DNA of 64,000 nt. Source: Synechococcus sp. HK01-R (GTDB lineage Bacteria; Cyanobacteriota; Cyanobacteriia; PCC-6307; Cyanobiaceae). Made by a program: the position numbers and the translations under genes. The notes under the pieces are model-generated. The model was not told the origin of the DNA. It ran no database searches and was given only the letters and a program-made list of their open reading frames with translations. The stretch lies in assembly GCF_014217855.1 (NCBI RefSeq), contig NZ_CP059059.1, positions 1,798,001-1,862,000 of the forward strand, read 5' to 3'. This document shows positions 49,176 through 55,528 of the stretch, one piece after another (within the stretch, counting starts at the first letter, position 1; every line of letters begins with the position of its first letter).

Positions 49176-50261
49176 TCAGCGAACGGCCGGCTGGAGCGCC
49201 TCGCTGCGCACGGGTTTCATCAGGAAGAGCGTGGCCATCTCGAGACCGTTGCCCACCCAGTAAGGAAGCTTGCGGAGCAGCTTGATCGAGGCTGGAGCTT
49301 GACTCTCGTCGGCAGCGCTCAGAGCAGCGTTGTTTTGCACCAATCGCTCCAGGCCTTCCCAGAAGCGGGGATTCTTGACATCAAGAACCACTGGGAACAC
49401 CCGGGCCGAAGTCTCATTGGTCTTGTCAATCACCACCCGGTCGTAGTCGCGCGCATCAAGACCAAGGGCCTCATAAAACTCCTTACGGGCAACGTCGCGC
49501 ACGTACATCGTCGCGAAGACGGCCAGCAGGAAGAAGCGGCACCACAGCCTGGCGGTCAAGCCACGCACGGTATCGGGCTGGGCCTTCATCAGGGCGTCGA
49601 AGAAATCGCCATGACGGTTTTCGTCCTGGCACCAATTCTCGAAGAAATTGAAGATCGGGAATATCTTGCTGTCTGGATTCTGTTCCAGGTGACGGAAGAT
49701 CGTGATGTAACGCCAGTAGCCAATCTTCTCGGACAGATAAGTGGCGTAAAAGATGAACTTCGGTTTGAAGAACGTGTATTTCTTGTTGGCAGTCAGGAAG
49801 CCGAGGTCGAGCTGTAAGCCGAAATCGCTCATCGCCTTGTTCAAGAAGCCAGCATGGCGGGCTTCGTCGCGGGCCATGTGCGCGAAGCACTCGGCGAGCA
49901 ATGGGTTGCGGTTCTTGATTCGACGGCTGAGTTCCTTGTAAAGCAGGAATCCAGAAAATTCAGAGGTGCAGCTCTGCTCCAGAAACTCAACGAAGACTTC
50001 GCGAGTTTGTGGATCGAGTTTGTCGGCTGCGCCGTCAAATTCGCCATTGCGAACGAAATGATGGCGGTTGTAATCCTTGCGGAATTCCTCGCAGATCGCC
50101 TCGAGCTCCGCCTCGTTCGGGCGGAGGTCCATGGCGGCCATGGCCTCGAAATCCGTGGTGTAAAAGCGTGGCGTGAGGATCGTGTCCTTCACGGGGTCCT
50201 TCACGGCAACGGACGAGCCGGCGTTAGCCGCAGCTTCCGTTACGGCGGTGGGAGGCACCAT
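49176..50261 (-). CDS. acsF: Mg-protoporphyrin IX monomethyl ester oxidative cyclase (AcsF)
   Basis: 361 residues. The O2-dependent di-iron enzyme that closes the fifth ring of chlorophyll. Starts with [17 protein letters not shown]. Di-iron ligands lie in [19 protein letters not shown] and [16 protein letters not shown] (E-x2-H pairs). The following [15 protein letters not shown] and the C-terminal block are as in cyanobacterial AcsF. A hallmark of an oxygenic phototroph. Confidence 0.96.
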
Positions 50262-50329: not shown

Positions 50330-50803
50330 TCAGTTGCCTCCCAGCCACTTCTGTCCGTTGAGGCGTTGCAGAAGGCGTGAGAGCAGCAGCGGGAGGCTCA
50401 TGCGCTTTTCATCAATCAGAAACGACTCCAGGAGGCTGGGTTCGGTGCCCGGGTCGGCCAGGGCAATGGTTTTGCCGGCATTGATCGAATCGTCGTTGAA
50501 GCAGAGCCAGAAGCGCCGCCCGGGCGGCAGGCTCCCCGTCACCATCCAACAGTCACCACCCACAACAGGCCGTTCACCCTGGACGAGTTCCAGGCTTTCG
50601 GGCGTGATGCCATGGCTCTGGAGGCCCTTCAGCAGGCCCGGGATCAAATCGTCATGAATGAAGCTCGTGAAGGGCTTGTCTTCCAGCTTCGGGGGTTTGA
50701 CCGGCTTGTCCTTTTTGGCGGCAGCGGACTGATCCGCCTGAGCCGGACTGGTTCCGTCAGCTTGGTTCTCCAGGGCTTTGTCTGCCTGAGGTGTTTCGCT
50801 CAC
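50330..50803 (-). CDS. DUF2996 family protein
   Basis: 157 residues from a GTG start. A disordered Lys/Ala-rich N-terminus (about 1-45) precedes the DUF2996 core: FIHDDLIPGLLKGLQSHGI, CWMVTGSLPPGRRFWLCFNDD and SLLESFLIDEKRMSLPLLLSRLLQRLNGQKWL. The family is cyanobacterial and plastid; a role in photosystem II or NDH assembly has been suggested for plant relatives, but nothing here proves it. It lies between acsF and a membrane protein gene. Confidence 0.8.
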   Translation of the reverse strand: MSETPQADKALENQADGTSPAQADQSAAAKKDKPVKPPKLEDKPFTSFIHDDLIPGLLKGLQSHGITPESLELVQGERPVVGGDCWMVTGSLPPGRRFWLCFNDDSINAGKTIALADPGTEPSLLESFLIDEKRMSLPLLLSRLLQRLNGQKWLGGN

Positions 50804-50848: not shown

Positions 50849-51361
50849 TCACCAGTCATCGTTGACCTGGCTCGACCAGTCGTCGTGTCCCGTACCCATG
50901 GAGCTGGCTGCAGCCGTTGGTCCACGCTGCTCCCCTCGTTTGATCACCCGATAGGGCACGGCAACGGTGGGTGCTGGGTCGCGCACATCCCGTTCAGGCC
51001 AGACCTGAGGGGAGTCATTGGATGGGTTGGGCTCACGGGACCTGTGCTCGGCATCGACGTCGCCGGAACCACGACGATTTGGATCTGGCCAGGGAGCCCA
51101 GGGTTCTCTTGAAAATGGCTCTCGACGTACATGGCGTTGCAGGGGCCTCTGCTGAGTGCTGAGCAAGAAGGCGCCAGCGCCGCTCACGAGGGCGCCTCCC
51201 GCCGCCGCGATTGCGATCCAGGCGCCCAGGGGCAGCACCGGCGATCGCCAGGTCAGGAAGCGCAGGGAGCTGCTTTGGCGCCCGTTCAGGCTGGCAACAA
51301 GAGCCAGTGCCACCAACGGGGTCAGAGACGGAACCAGGAGCAGTCTCTGCAGTGGTGTCAT
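50849..51361 (-). CDS. Two-helix membrane protein with long polar tail, unknown
   Basis: 170 residues. Two hydrophobic segments (LLLVPSLTPLVALALVASL and LPLGAWIAIAAAGGALVSG) are followed by about 100 polar residues rich in Arg, Pro and Asp, probably disordered and cytoplasmic. Start ATG overlaps the ubiX stop by 4 bases, so it is translationally coupled. No family recognised. Confidence 0.6.
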   Translation of the reverse strand: MTPLQRLLLVPSLTPLVALALVASLNGRQSSSLRFLTWRSPVLPLGAWIAIAAAGGALVSGAGAFLLSTQQRPLQRHVRREPFSREPWAPWPDPNRRGSGDVDAEHRSREPNPSNDSPQVWPERDVRDPAPTVAVPYRVIKRGEQRGPTAAASSMGTGHDDWSSQVNDDW

Positions 51362-52005
51362 CGCTGATCCCCTGTCCAGCGCTGGATTGGTGCGAGATCT
51401 TCATCCAATCCGTCAAAGAGGCGAACGACCAGAAAATCGACCATGTCGTCGAGGGTTCTTGGCTGGGTGTACCAGGCGGGGATCGGAGGGGCAATCCGCG
51501 CACCAGCTTCCGCAAGGTTGGTGAGGTTGCGCAGATGAATCAGATTCCATGGCATCTCCCTTGGCGCAATCACGAGGGGACGGCCTTCCTTCAAGTGCAC
51601 ATCGGCGCAGCGCTCGACCAGGTCCGTGGCCACACCCGCGGCAATGCGCCCGACGGTGCCCATGCTGCAGGGCACGATCACCATGCCCCGAGTGCGGTAG
51701 CTGCCGCTAGCGATGTTCGCTGCCTGGTCATTGAATCGGTGGCATTGGAGGGCCCCGGTCTGGCAGTCAAGACGATCGCGCCAGAACTGTTGTTGCTGTT
51801 CGGGATCGAGTGGGACGCTTTCACCCCGCTCCGCTTTCCATACCTCATGGGCACCGCGACTGAGAACGAGATGAACGCTTCGCCCCCGTTGAAGCAACAG
51901 TTGCAGCGCCCTTTCTGCAAGCGGTTGGGCTGATGCCCCTGTCACCGCGAGCACGTAGGGGTGATCAGCGCTTTGCTGGGTGCTCGAGGCTGAGGTGGCT
52001 GGCAT
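51358..52005 (-). CDS. ubiX: Flavin prenyltransferase UbiX
   Basis: 215 residues. Makes prenyl-FMN for UbiD-type decarboxylases used in quinone synthesis. YVLAVTGASAQPLAERALQLL is the FMN site. IVPCSMGTVGRIAAGVATDLVERCADV and PLVIAPREMPWNLIHLRNL complete the site; the usual TGASG is TGASA here. It starts 12 bases after the RNase II-family gene on the same strand. Confidence 0.9.
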   Translation of the reverse strand: MPATSASSTQQSADHPYVLAVTGASAQPLAERALQLLLQRGRSVHLVLSRGAHEVWKAERGESVPLDPEQQQQFWRDRLDCQTGALQCHRFNDQAANIASGSYRTRGMVIVPCSMGTVGRIAAGVATDLVERCADVHLKEGRPLVIAPREMPWNLIHLRNLTNLAEAGARIAPPIPAWYTQPRTLDDMVDFLVVRLFDGLDEDLAPIQRWTGDQR

Positions 52006-52016
52006 GCTCGCTGTCC

Positions 52017-54362
52017 TCAGTGCTCATTCACTAAGACGGGAATCGATGCTTCCTGCCCGGATCCAGGGGCTGTGGAGACGACCTCCGCCGCGTCATCGGC
52101 ACTCGCTACGACCTCGAGATCAATCTGGTTGCGCAGCACATCCACTTTCATGATTTTCACCGTCACGGCATCCCCGAGTTGATAGCGACGCCGATTGCGA
52201 CGACCGACGAGTCGGTTCTGCCTGGAGCGGTACTCGTACCAGTCATCGTTGAGTGAACTGACGTGGACCAGTCCTTCGATCATCGAGGGTGGCAGCTCCA
52301 CAAAGAATCCGTAGCTCTGCACGCCGCTGATCACTCCGGGCTGCTCCTGGCCCACCATCGGTTCACAGTGCCGCGCCTGCATCATCGCGACGACATCCCG
52401 GCGCAATTCAGCCACCTGACGACGCCTGGCATTCAACTTTTGCAGCAGTCGCTGGGGCGCTAATTCAGAAATTTTTTGGCTCTGAGATTGGCTGAAGAGT
52501 GGCCACTCGATCCTGCTACCGCAGCCGCGTTCACCAAGGACAACCTTGTCCTTTTGTCGGACACTCGGCCGGTCCTTGCCCTCCAGAAGCACCGCTGAAA
52601 GCAACTGCTGATTGATGAGATCAGCGGCGTGCAAGGTGGGGCAGCACCAGGGTGCCGTTCGTCTGGGTGTAGAGCTCGACCTATCGGTCTCAGCACTGGC
52701 GGTCACCTCACTGTCGTCATTGGCTCCTCCTTCCCCAGGTTCTGTTGTGGCGTCGATCTCGAGGAGCGGTGCGGGAAGAGCCTGGCAGAGCTGACGGTCG
52801 AGCACACGTCGCTGGGGGCAGGATGCAATGGCCTGGGCCAGCTCCACGGGAGATGGTGTTCCGTCCTCCTCGAGTTCCAGAGGAAGCTCCAGGGCCACGG
52901 CCGCTTTGGCAACGTCCGTGAGTGCTGAGGCCTCCGCTTCCGGGGCCAACAGCTCCAGCGCCTTGACCTGGAGATCTTGGCTGTGCTGTGACCAGGTCCG
53001 ATCGGCGGCCATGACGAGAACGGCCAGAATCGACTGCGGATCTTGTTCGTTCAGCGGGCTGATCCATTGCTGACGATCTGCATCGGGCCATGAACGGCCC
53101 AGGTCTCCCAGGCTTTCAAGCTCAGGTGCCGCGAGGTCCAGCTCCAGCACTCCATTGCGGATTGCTTCGGCCTGCAGGCTGCGAGCGCAGAACAGGAGTG
53201 TTTCCAGCTGACCGATCTGGTCTTTGATCGGTTTGAGGGCTGCTGGCACGCTTCTGGCCTTTGGCTTTCGGGCGCCGAGAGCCTCGAGTTGCGCTGGGGT
53301 GATCTCGGCGACGGGCCGGATCCGGCTGAGGCAGAACAGCCAGTCACGCACATCACCCTCAGCATTGATGTCGAGCCGGAGAGTGATGGCATCCTGCTCT
53401 TCACCGACGGTGAAACGGCAGGCCTCGTCGAGGGGCCCGTTGAGCAGAGGTTGCCAAACCTCTCCAAGGCAGAGGGCTTCCCCCCGCTCCTTGATCCAGG
53501 CATCAAGAGCCTGTCCGGGTGCGAGACGTTCGGCCACGGTGGGCGCATGGACCCACAGGCGGGATCCTCCCTCGTGGGGCTCGACGTGAACCGCAGGGAG
53601 TGCCGGGGCCCCTGCGCCGCTCCAGCTCCGCAGAAGAAGACTGGGTTGATCGCAGAGCTGTTGGCGTTTTTTGGCGTTGGGAGTCTTGAGACTGGATCGA
53701 GGTGCTTCCGGTCTCTCATGCAGATTCGCCTTGGTCAGCAGGAGCTCCCGATCACCTGCGGCTCCTGCATCCAGTGGTAACGGCCTTGCTACATGACCTC
53801 GGGCTGCAAATTGCGCCACTGGGTAGCGATCAACCTTCACTTCCACAAGGGAGCCGCTGTGCTCTCCCGCTTCAGCGAGTTCAATCGTGGCCAGAAGCCT
53901 GTCATCAAGAGGCAGCGCAACAACCCTGTTCTCCTGCTGGTCGAGATGGGCGAGAAGACTTGTGGTTTGGCGCTCGAGAATGCACTGGACCCCGCCCTCC
54001 GGTGAGCGACGACGCCCACCCTCGCGGGTGACTTTCACCAGCACTCGATCGCCATTCCAGGCGTGATTGAGCTGGTGGTCGCGGATATAGATGTCTTCAC
54101 CACCGTCATCACGGATGGCAAAGCAAAAGCCTTTGCTGCTGCATCGCAGCCGGGCCTCGATCATGTCCGGATTGTCGGTCCGCTGGATCGAGCCTTCCTT
54201 CGGACAGGTGATCACACCAAGTTTTTCAAGCCCCTGAATGGCGAGTTGCAGGGTGTCTTTTTCCGAACGGTTGCTCAGTCGGAAGATCTTTTCGAGTGTT
54301 TCGGATTCAACTGAACCGGAAACAGGGACCTGGTCGAGCAGATCAGCGACCGTGAACTTCAT
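52017..54362 (-). CDS. RNase II-family protein lacking catalytic residues (Zam-like)
   Basis: 781 residues. The layout is RNase II/R: a winged N-terminal domain, cold-shock domains (RCSSKGFCFAIRDDGGEDIY), an RNB-like centre (about 240-600) and a C-terminal S1 domain (GVISGVQSYGFFVELPPSM). Where active enzymes carry IDxxDAxDFDDA, this protein reads LLRSWSGAGAPALPAVHVEP (about 244-262). Where they carry TSPIRRYADL it reads TAPWCCPTLHAADL (about 569-582). The four Asp ligands and the arginine are gone. It may bind RNA without cutting it. Cyanobacterial Zam (acetazolamide resistance) is a similar-sized paralogue; identity with Zam is from memory. Confidence 0.8.
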   Translation of the reverse strand: MKFTVADLLDQVPVSGSVESETLEKIFRLSNRSEKDTLQLAIQGLEKLGVITCPKEGSIQRTDNPDMIEARLRCSSKGFCFAIRDDGGEDIYIRDHQLNHAWNGDRVLVKVTREGGRRRSPEGGVQCILERQTTSLLAHLDQQENRVVALPLDDRLLATIELAEAGEHSGSLVEVKVDRYPVAQFAARGHVARPLPLDAGAAGDRELLLTKANLHERPEAPRSSLKTPNAKKRQQLCDQPSLLLRSWSGAGAPALPAVHVEPHEGGSRLWVHAPTVAERLAPGQALDAWIKERGEALCLGEVWQPLLNGPLDEACRFTVGEEQDAITLRLDINAEGDVRDWLFCLSRIRPVAEITPAQLEALGARKPKARSVPAALKPIKDQIGQLETLLFCARSLQAEAIRNGVLELDLAAPELESLGDLGRSWPDADRQQWISPLNEQDPQSILAVLVMAADRTWSQHSQDLQVKALELLAPEAEASALTDVAKAAVALELPLELEEDGTPSPVELAQAIASCPQRRVLDRQLCQALPAPLLEIDATTEPGEGGANDDSEVTASAETDRSSSTPRRTAPWCCPTLHAADLINQQLLSAVLLEGKDRPSVRQKDKVVLGERGCGSRIEWPLFSQSQSQKISELAPQRLLQKLNARRRQVAELRRDVVAMMQARHCEPMVGQEQPGVISGVQSYGFFVELPPSMIEGLVHVSSLNDDWYEYRSRQNRLVGRRNRRRYQLGDAVTVKIMKVDVLRNQIDLEVVASADDAAEVVSTAPGSGQEASIPVLVNEH

Positions 54363-54477: not shown

Positions 54478-54822
54478 TCAGAGTTTAGGCGAAGCCCCAT
54501 CCTCGACGTCCTGGGCTAGCTCAGCCCCTTCTTGGCCGCCTGGAAAGCCGCCAAGGAGGGGCCATAGAAGCCGAAGACCGATCACGAGGAAACCCAGGGA
54601 TGCCAACAGCTGAAGCAGATCAGCTGGTATGAAATTGGCCATTGACCCACCGGCGATGGCGCCGATGAGACTGGCCACGACAAGGGCTGAGGACGAGCCG
54701 AGAAACACCGCCAACGGCCTGTTGGATGTTCCACTGATCGCAACGGTTGCTAACTGCGTCTTGTCCCCAAGCTCCGCCAAAAACACGGTCACGAAGGTGG
54801 AGATCAGGAGCGTGAGATCCAT
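54478..54822 (-). CDS. Half-size GDT1/UPF0016 transporter, second copy
   Basis: 114 residues, about three helices. Carries the family motif FVTVFLAELGDKTQLATVA once. Full-length GDT1/Mnx has two such motifs in one chain; here each lies in its own gene. Homologues export Mn2+ or move Ca2+/Mn2+ into compartments. It lies 6 bases after the first half-size gene, so both should be made together and pair as a heterodimer. Confidence 0.85.
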   Translation of the reverse strand: MDLTLLISTFVTVFLAELGDKTQLATVAISGTSNRPLAVFLGSSSALVVASLIGAIAGGSMANFIPADLLQLLASLGFLVIGLRLLWPLLGGFPGGQEGAELAQDVEDGASPKL

Positions 54823-54828
54823 GGTTGA

Positions 54829-55131
54829 TCAGTTGTTCGCGTTTTGAAGCATCGATTGGAGGGCCTGGACCCCCAGCCAGAGTCCGAGACCCACCATCAA
54901 CAGGCCCGCCATCTGCTCGAGTCGCTCAGGTGGCAGCACCTGCGAGAGCCAGCGACCAACCAGAACCCCCACCAGGCTCGAGCAGATCAGTGCCATAGCC
55001 GCGCCGAGGAAAACGAGCCAGGGCTGGCCCGATTGGGCAGAGAGAAGCAAAGTTGCTAATTGGGTTTTGTCACCGAGCTCCGCCAGAAACACCGTGGTGA
55101 AGGTGCTGAGCAGCACGGCGGTGAAGCTCAT
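54829..55131 (-). CDS. Half-size GDT1/UPF0016 transporter, first copy
   Basis: 100 residues from ATG 55131, chosen because MSFTAVLLSTFTTVFLAELGDKTQ aligns with the start of its twin. A GAGGAG site lies upstream. An ATG at 55170 would add 13 residues and overlap the YkgJ gene. Three helices, one ELGDKTQ motif. With the next gene it makes up one full transporter, probably for manganese in or out of the thylakoid or cytoplasm. Confidence 0.82.
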   Translation of the reverse strand: MSFTAVLLSTFTTVFLAELGDKTQLATLLLSAQSGQPWLVFLGAAMALICSSLVGVLVGRWLSQVLPPERLEQMAGLLMVGLGLWLGVQALQSMLQNANN

Positions 55132-55162
55132 GGAGCCGCTGGACTCCTCAGCTCGCTGGAGT

Positions 55163-55528
55163 TCAGCCATTCGATCGCCGCAGACTGCGATTGAACTTAC
55201 GTAGTTCGCGGCTGTTGCCGCCATGCTCTGAGCGGATTTGTTGGCGGCAGCAGGCAATCGCGAAGTCATTCGCTTTTTCGTCCGCTAGATCAAACAAGCC
55301 CGCCAGGTTGCTGACGCGGCAAAAATCTGGGCGCTCGTCATAAATCCTGCAGCTCCTTGCACCGGTGTCGTAGTGCTTGCACCAACCATCGGGGCCGGCC
55401 ATCTCTAAATACAACGCTCGCTGCGCTTCTGATAAGGCCGCTAGGGCCTCCGGGCGGTCATCAGGGGACAGCCGGCAGCAGGCACCGCAGAACCGGATAC
55501 AGGTCCAGGTGTCTTGGCGCTTCGACAT
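55163..55528 (-). CDS. YkgJ-family cysteine-cluster protein
   Basis: 121 residues from ATG 55528 (ATG 55546 adds six). Eight cysteines are arranged as in the UPF0153/YkgJ family: CIRFCGACCRL near the start, WCKHYD, SCRIYDERPDFCRVS, and FAIACCRQQ. These probably bind Zn or an Fe-S cluster. Function is unknown. Upstream of the two half-size GDT1 genes, in the same direction; a metal-handling operon is possible. Confidence 0.85.
   Translation of the reverse strand: MSKRQDTWTCIRFCGACCRLSPDDRPEALAALSEAQRALYLEMAGPDGWCKHYDTGARSCRIYDERPDFCRVSNLAGLFDLADEKANDFAIACCRQQIRSEHGGNSRELRKFNRSLRRSNG

Follow-up and report, generated by a model that had tools for sequence, protein, structure and literature searches.

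A Zam orthologue with an erased nuclease site and conserved flanking domains in Synechococcus sp. HK01-R

The stretch of Synechococcus sp. HK01-R DNA analysed here (the window; 64,000 nucleotides of contig NZ_CP059059.1, positions 1,798,001 to 1,862,000) encodes a protein of the RNB family that is an orthologue of cyanobacterial Zam and a pseudonuclease probably derived from RNase R. Judged from its sequence, this protein is almost certainly not an RNB-type exonuclease. The initial annotation had suggested membership of the Zam class, and the domain architecture, a cysteine pair in the first cold-shock domain (CSD1) and clade placement all establish the protein as an orthologue. The core of the finding, the degenerate site of Zam, was published in 2022 (PMC9145284), and the idea of a pseudonuclease with possible RNA binding is likewise already contained in that paper. 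Statements credited to published work refer to the parts of the cited papers that were consulted. On balance we lean slightly towards the overall explanation that Zam is a dead RNase R scaffold acting as a redox-gated adaptor through CSD1 and the S1 domain.

The catalytic site of the window protein

The host genome comprises 2.48 Mb in a single contig with ~60% G+C and encodes two RNB proteins; its size and base composition, together with its relatives, point to a marine picocyanobacterium. Positions below are those of the window, and residue numbers those of the window protein:

52017..54362, minus strand: zam-type coding sequence, 781 amino acids plus stop, a real open reading frame with an ATG start
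54165..54362, minus strand: N-terminal helical region, residues 1-66, presumably winged-helix-like (AlphaFold2 secondary structure; predicted local distance difference test score, pLDDT, ~80 in this part only)
53973..54164, minus strand: CSD1, residues 67-130, the best conserved part (Pfam OB_RNB at 71-126, and conservation)
54123..54143, minus strand: redox cysteines of loop L12, C74 and C80, equivalent to C73/C79 of PCC 7002 (alignment)
53691..53972, minus strand: region of the second cold-shock domain (CSD2), residues 131-224, poorly conserved (conservation)
52563..53690, minus strand: degenerate RNB domain, residues 225-600 (Pfam RNB at 255-592, and alignment)
53595..53630, minus strand: erased catalytic block, residues 245-256, with R245, P253, L255 and P256 at the four ligand columns (alignment)
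52626..52646, minus strand: replaced TSPIRRY block, residues 573-579, reading CCPTLHA (alignment)
52098..52367, minus strand: S1 domain, residues 666-755 (Pfam S1 at 667-750, and conservation)

The Pfam matches follow the order CSD1-CSD2-RNB-S1 characteristic of Zam; the RNB match scores 120.9 bits, and the CSD2 match (89-131) is weak and overlaps CSD1. An AlphaFold2 model built on 42 Nostocaceae Zam rows reached a mean pLDDT of 52 and a predicted template modelling score of 0.32, values that make it unusable for pocket geometry.

Alignments that included E. coli rows (104 RNB proteins, later 205) place R245, P253, L255 and P256 of the window protein at D201, D207, D209 and D210 of E. coli RNase II, columns that we take from structural work to be the metal ligands of that enzyme; none of the four acids is present. 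Because no acidic residue occurs between D238 and E261, this result is independent of the exact alignment register, and a phmmer comparison with RNase R chains of the PDB independently aligned the same stretch. The block corresponding to TSPIRKY of RNase II reads CCPTLHA, so that the R500 motif is lacking. We assume from RNase II structures that R500, together with Y253 and E542, contacts RNA and holds it in the RNB channel. Both replacements, of the catalytic Asp block and of TSPIRRY, had been proposed in the initial annotation and are borne out here. A pattern for the catalytic block was matched by 33/33 Rnb rows, which served as control, and by 0/170 Zam rows; the four acids stand at the ligand columns in 33/33 Rnb and 2/2 E. 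coli rows but in none of the 170 Zam rows. On the NCBIfam model RNase_R (TIGR02063) the window protein scores 188.5 bits and does not reach the curated cut-off of 597.85, and the intact Rnb of the same genome, at 167.8 bits, likewise falls below it.

Other explanations for the missing site were considered and rejected. Misalignment is excluded by the absence of any acid between D238 and E261. A displaced catalytic Asp block, named in the initial annotation as one finding that would overturn it, was not found in a motif scan of the whole protein. Chance, a wrong reading frame or sequencing error was discarded because P253 and L255 are common to all 30 fetched family members and the ratio of nonsynonymous to synonymous substitutions (dN/dS) lies far below 1. 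Neither gene names nor 'RNase II/R' annotations in marine cyanobacteria should be taken as a sign that this gene has nuclease activity.

Zam membership and graded loss of the site

Relatives were found in 142 of the 291 genomes of the phylum searched, 37 of them in the window's own picocyanobacterial family, including genomes of 1.6-1.7 Mb. For the alignments, 30 of these 37 family hits and 59 of the 105 non-family hits (hand-chosen across family codes) were sampled, along with three later genomes. The 170 Zam rows comprise 30 from the window's family, 87 from Nostocaceae, a set of near relatives with a large influence on the totals, and 53 from other cyanobacteria; one row (L141) is a fragment and is included in the counts. 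C74 and C80 have the same spacing as C73/C79 of PCC 7002, and both cysteines occur in 167/170 Zam but in 0/33 Rnb rows. A quick maximum-likelihood tree built from 82 rows, which carried long-branch warnings, separates its 68 Zam rows from the others by a branch with a support of 97 in the Shimodaira-Hasegawa-like approximate likelihood ratio test (SH-aLRT). All trees were quick ones that drew warnings of long branches and unusual composition, and the deep order inside Zam is not to be relied on.

Domain order and a full-length alignment match tie the window protein to bacterial RNase R (TIGR02063), from which it differs in lacking the catalytic acids and TSPIRRY; comparison at the sequence level suggests that RNase R is likely the ancestor of Zam. 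Thomas et al. (2022) described Zam as an RNB clade in which the canonical site is absent from every member, and classed its proteins as non-functional nucleases that possibly retain RNA binding (PMC9145284). The Zam of that study (Synechocystis sll1910; Synechococcus PCC 7002 A1543) shares with the window protein the arrangement CSD-CSD-RNB-S1, the degenerate site, the CSD1 cysteine pair and the clade. Deletion of zam confers acetazolamide tolerance and a pigment change in PCC 6803 and PCC 7002 (PMC9145284). In PCC 7002 the two CSD1 cysteines are redox-active in vitro and required in vivo, and Cys-to-Ser mutants phenocopy the deletion (PMC9145284). As a bacterial RNB pseudonuclease, Zam affects photosynthesis. 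Unlike the published Zam, the window's lineage also lacks the RNA-grip residues of the RNB domain, carries newly fixed W247, P253, L255 and W572 and a third invariant cysteine (C127) and, except in its small-genome group, has Cys at 298 and at 573/574.

Loss of the site is graded across Zam. Three acids remain at the ligand columns in 4/170 rows, among which L033, L070 and L075 read D-A-D-D (D201, D209 and D210 kept) and retain SPxRRY; L070 scores 573.9 bits on RNase_R, against the cut-off of 597.85. An acid at column 207 is rare in Zam: E occurs there in 5/170 rows, each of which has other ligands altered. Nostocaceae Zam carry E209-N210, R500, R501 and E542 in 87/87 rows and Y253 in 85/87. 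The window's family (n=30) has P at column 207 and L at 209 in every row, and P at 210 in 27 rows; in 24 rows Y253 is replaced by C, no row keeps R500, and E542 is also gone in most. All four ligand columns are free of acids in the window protein and in 27/30 rows of the family. The branch leading to this family, at 1.65 changes per column in the quick tree, is the longest inner branch within Zam, and Pfam RNB scores fall from 341.9 bits in the best Zam through 123.3 in the window protein to 58.6 in a small-genome relative. These comparisons indicate that catalytic loss in Zam was stepwise, D207 likely having been lost first, as we infer, in an RNase R-like ancestor and the remainder differently in each lineage. 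Repeated losses of a similar kind have been reported in fungal Dis3L2/Ssd1 (PMC8097288). The graded series of three-Asp, E..EN and fully rebuilt forms offers natural variants with which nuclease and non-nuclease roles could be separated. Neither the three-Asp Zam forms nor the rebuilt picocyanobacterial pocket is described in the portions of the literature searched, which took in part of PMC9145284, and the main text of that paper contains 0 occurrences of Prochlorococcus. As a separate observation, the catalytic block is deleted in L079, L080 and L085, from two other lineages, which leaves two or three of the ligand columns empty, apparently through independent loss.

Selection on the flanking domains and candidate modes of action

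Conservation is unevenly distributed along the protein. Between the window protein and 27 of the 53 Zam rows from other cyanobacteria, mean identity reaches 0.66 (CSD1) and 0.55 (S1) but falls to 0.30 (CSD2) and 0.20/0.18 (RNB); Rnb compared with Rnb shows the reverse pattern (CSD1 0.33, S1 0.29, CSD2 0.26, RNB 0.49/0.44). Conservation of CSD1 and S1 over RNB had been reported earlier from fewer genomes (PMC9145284). Nei-Gojobori dN/dS among the 14 most similar pairs listed is 0.070-0.233 overall, 0.087-0.361 in RNB, 0-0.117 in CSD1 and 0.021-0.102 in S1. R73, K77 and F81 of CSD1 and Y684, G685, F686, F687 and H700 of S1 are invariant in 30/30 family rows, and F79 of CSD1 is invariant in a 43-row alignment (A1). 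As far as sequence comparison reveals it, selection is shown to be strongest on CSD1, with C74/C80, and on S1, not on the RNB domain, and the RNB channel residues predicted to grip RNA are shown to be gone in the window's lineage. The proposal that all RNA-binding domains had been kept therefore needs rewording: scaffold and OB/S1 regions are retained under selection, but the RNB grip residues are lost, conservation is strong in CSD1 and S1 only and poor in CSD2 and RNB, and RNA binding is putative. Likewise, selection for RNA binding without cleavage holds as to erased catalysis and domains under selection, whereas the binding itself is unproven, having gone undetected in the sole published assay, on PCC 7002 Zam (PMC9145284).

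Within the RNB domain of the window's family, 19 of 376 positions are invariant; W247, P253, L255, W303 and W572 are among them and are not the residues most often found at those positions in either other Zam or Rnb. The former cutting site is now made up of newly fixed residues, so that the gene has been repurposed and is not decaying. A decaying pseudogene of an RNase R, which the lost site, the diverged RNB domain and the very long family branch might suggest, is refuted by the dN/dS of 0.07-0.23 and can be considered practically negligible: the reading frame is full length in 30/30 fetched family members, new invariant residues occupy the old site and the gene is kept in small genomes.

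The vacated pocket might have acquired a second, cysteine-based site, comprising C298 (at the column of the RNA-stacking Y253), C573/C574 (at T496/S497 of TSPIRKY) and the refilled W247, P253, L255 and W572, which would act as a disulfide- or metal-based redox sensor alongside C74/C80 and would have been lost again in the Prochlorococcus-like branch, as we label the small-genome branch of the family. Of the 30 family rows, 23 combine C298 with Cys at 573 and/or 574, one has C298 alone and six have neither, and most rows outside the small-genome branch carry both; their association on the tree is not significant because only 3 independent changes of C298 are available. We regard this reading as distinctly unlikely, although, if true, it would mean a nuclease active site converted to a sensor. 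C127 is present in 30/30 family rows and 0/140 other Zam, which mostly have L or V there. It sits on strand 122-130 of the low-confidence AlphaFold2 model and may be only a core residue rather than a third disulfide partner.

In the redox-gated adaptor that we favour for Zam, the RNB domain would form a rigid support from which CSD1 and S1 face outward. Reversible oxidation of C74 and C80, in the RNA-contact loop of CSD1, would switch partner binding (RNA and/or RNase E, which the host genome encodes), and the light or redox state would thereby tune the decay of photosynthesis transcripts. This mechanism in itself seems to us evenly poised between right and wrong. A precedent is fungal Ssd1, an RNase II-family pseudonuclease in which RNA binding has relocated to the CSD surface (PMC8934651, PMC8097288). 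In Ssd1/Sts5, of the Dis3L2 branch, the site was lost repeatedly, the CSDs are conserved and the RNA channel is unused (PMC8097288, PMC8934651), but these proteins are of independent eukaryotic origin, RNA binding is proven for Ssd1 and only putative for Zam, and the same papers, in the parts consulted, describe no cysteine switch for Ssd1. The window protein falls among the Zam proteins of cyanobacteria, and its likeness to Ssd1 would be one of way of working.

Several points weigh against the adaptor. Purified PCC 7002 Zam showed neither nuclease activity nor RNA binding in the published account, which carries an aggregation caveat (PMC9145284). Contact with RNase E is known for the Anabaena protein Alr1240 alone, and the redox gating of that contact is something we infer; redox gating in the window's lineage is likewise a prediction. 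The structure model, as noted, is unusable (mean pLDDT 52). Moreover, Alr1240, which PMC9145284 equates with Zam, reportedly breaks down unstructured RNA (PMC10989914), so that Zam is linked to RNase E through a protein for which exonuclease activity has also been described.

These accounts are in conflict, and the identity of Alr1240 matters. The RNase E partner from Anabaena, which stimulates that enzyme, is said to be Zam (PMC9145284); a review in mLife names the RNase E-binding protein as Alr1240, which binds the RNase E catalytic region, stimulates cleavage and degrades unstructured RNA (PMC10989914). In PCC 7120, alr1240-alr1241-alr1242 form one transcription unit (PMC10287535). The order zam, ubiX, third gene in genome G040 matches that unit, and the Rnb gene of G040 lies elsewhere on the opposite strand, an arrangement that is consistent with Alr1240 being Zam but is not proof. 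Should Alr1240 be Zam, E-N would be expected at its ligands 209/210, as in 87/87 relatives, and its activity would call for an explanation, such as contaminating host RNase or weak residual catalysis; should it be Rnb, the support for an RNase E model of Zam falls away. Whether the redox-degradosome model is directly supported depends on this identity.

The same observations bear on two alternatives. Zam could be a pure protein adaptor that binds no RNA and whose CSD1 and S1 dock on RNase E or another decay factor, raising or directing its activity, as the binding assay on purified PCC 7002 Zam (PMC9145284), the RNase E stimulation reported for Alr1240 (PMC10989914) and the loss of RNB grip residues in the window's lineage would suggest. 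Such an adaptor, however, need not keep the RNA-contact residues of CSD1 loop L12 (R73, K77, F81 and F79) and the S1 core, yet these are conserved, and the aggregation caveat applies to the binding assay; we consider it rather unlikely. Alternatively, Zam with remaining acids might still cut weakly, the window protein being an extreme member in which loss came later. Activity of Alr1240 on unstructured RNA (PMC10989914), the residues retained by Nostocaceae Zam and the three Asp kept in L033, L070 and L075 speak for residual cleavage, but purified PCC 7002 Zam was inactive in the published account (PMC9145284), host RNase contamination could explain the Alr1240 result, and residual activity is improbable for the window protein itself, which, with 27/30 family rows, has no acid at the ligand columns. 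We judge this alternative very unlikely.

Gene neighbourhood and other RNB proteins

The zam gene lies in a cluster with the following neighbours:

51358..52005, minus strand: ubiX-family flavin prenyltransferase, directly downstream of zam (TIGR00421, 163.5 bits, above cut-off)
50849..51361, minus strand: 170-residue protein, the conserved third gene of the cluster (conserved order), with no Pfam or NCBIfam match
50330..50803, minus strand: DUF2996 protein (PF11210)
49176..50261, minus strand: acsF, Mg-protoporphyrin IX monomethyl ester cyclase of chlorophyll synthesis (TIGR02029, 507.8 bits)
54478-54822 and 54829-55269, minus strand: two GDT1-family cation transporter half-genes, directly upstream of zam (PF01169)

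Across Zam, ubiX follows on the same strand within 400 bases in 125/164 loci, many of them from close Nostocaceae; 6 of the 170 loci were too short to judge. In the 15 family neighbourhoods fetched, a GDT1-type gene lies upstream in 15/15, and downstream the 170-residue gene, DUF2996, tldD and pmbA occur in 15/15, ubiX in 12/15 and acsF in 12/15. In three Prochlorococcus-like loci (L137, L138, L139) ubiX is missing from the cluster and the other order is kept. A gene similar to that of the 170-residue protein follows zam-ubiX in many other cyanobacteria. The link between zam and the chlorophyll and flavin genes is one of position only.

This conserved order raises the alternative that Zam is a local regulator acting on the zam-ubiX-...-acsF transcript and coupling redox state to chlorophyll synthesis. 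Antisense transcripts of the alr1240-1242 unit and of acsF are both listed as induced upon nitrogen step-down in PCC 7120 (PMC10287535), which would fit such a role. Gene order may nevertheless be kept for co-expression alone, the deletion phenotypes are pleiotropic and no target RNA is known, and we hold local regulation to be improbable.

The second RNB protein of the host genome (L001; G000:C1:1891869-1892741, minus strand) has an intact catalytic site, and from its similarity to the Rnb group we class it with cyanobacterial Rnb (RNase II) rather than with RNase R. The comparison proposed initially, with an active RNase R of the same genome, could accordingly be made with an intact RNB paralogue, though one of the Rnb type. 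Rnb (sll1290 type) shares the RNB domain with the window Zam and differs in its intact site and its lack of the CSD1 cysteine pair; in L001 neither OB_RNB nor S1 is recognised. In L236 (G211), L237 (G270) and other small-genome relatives the active Rnb is only ~394-446 residues long, a shortened form, and only the RNB domain is recognised in L236. In these relatives, therefore, the active paralogue has lost its flanking regions, whereas the dead Zam has retained its own. Some cyanobacteria encode a third RNB protein (L225, L226, L227) with intact DDDD and TSPLRR, which falls outside both Zam and the main Rnb clade.
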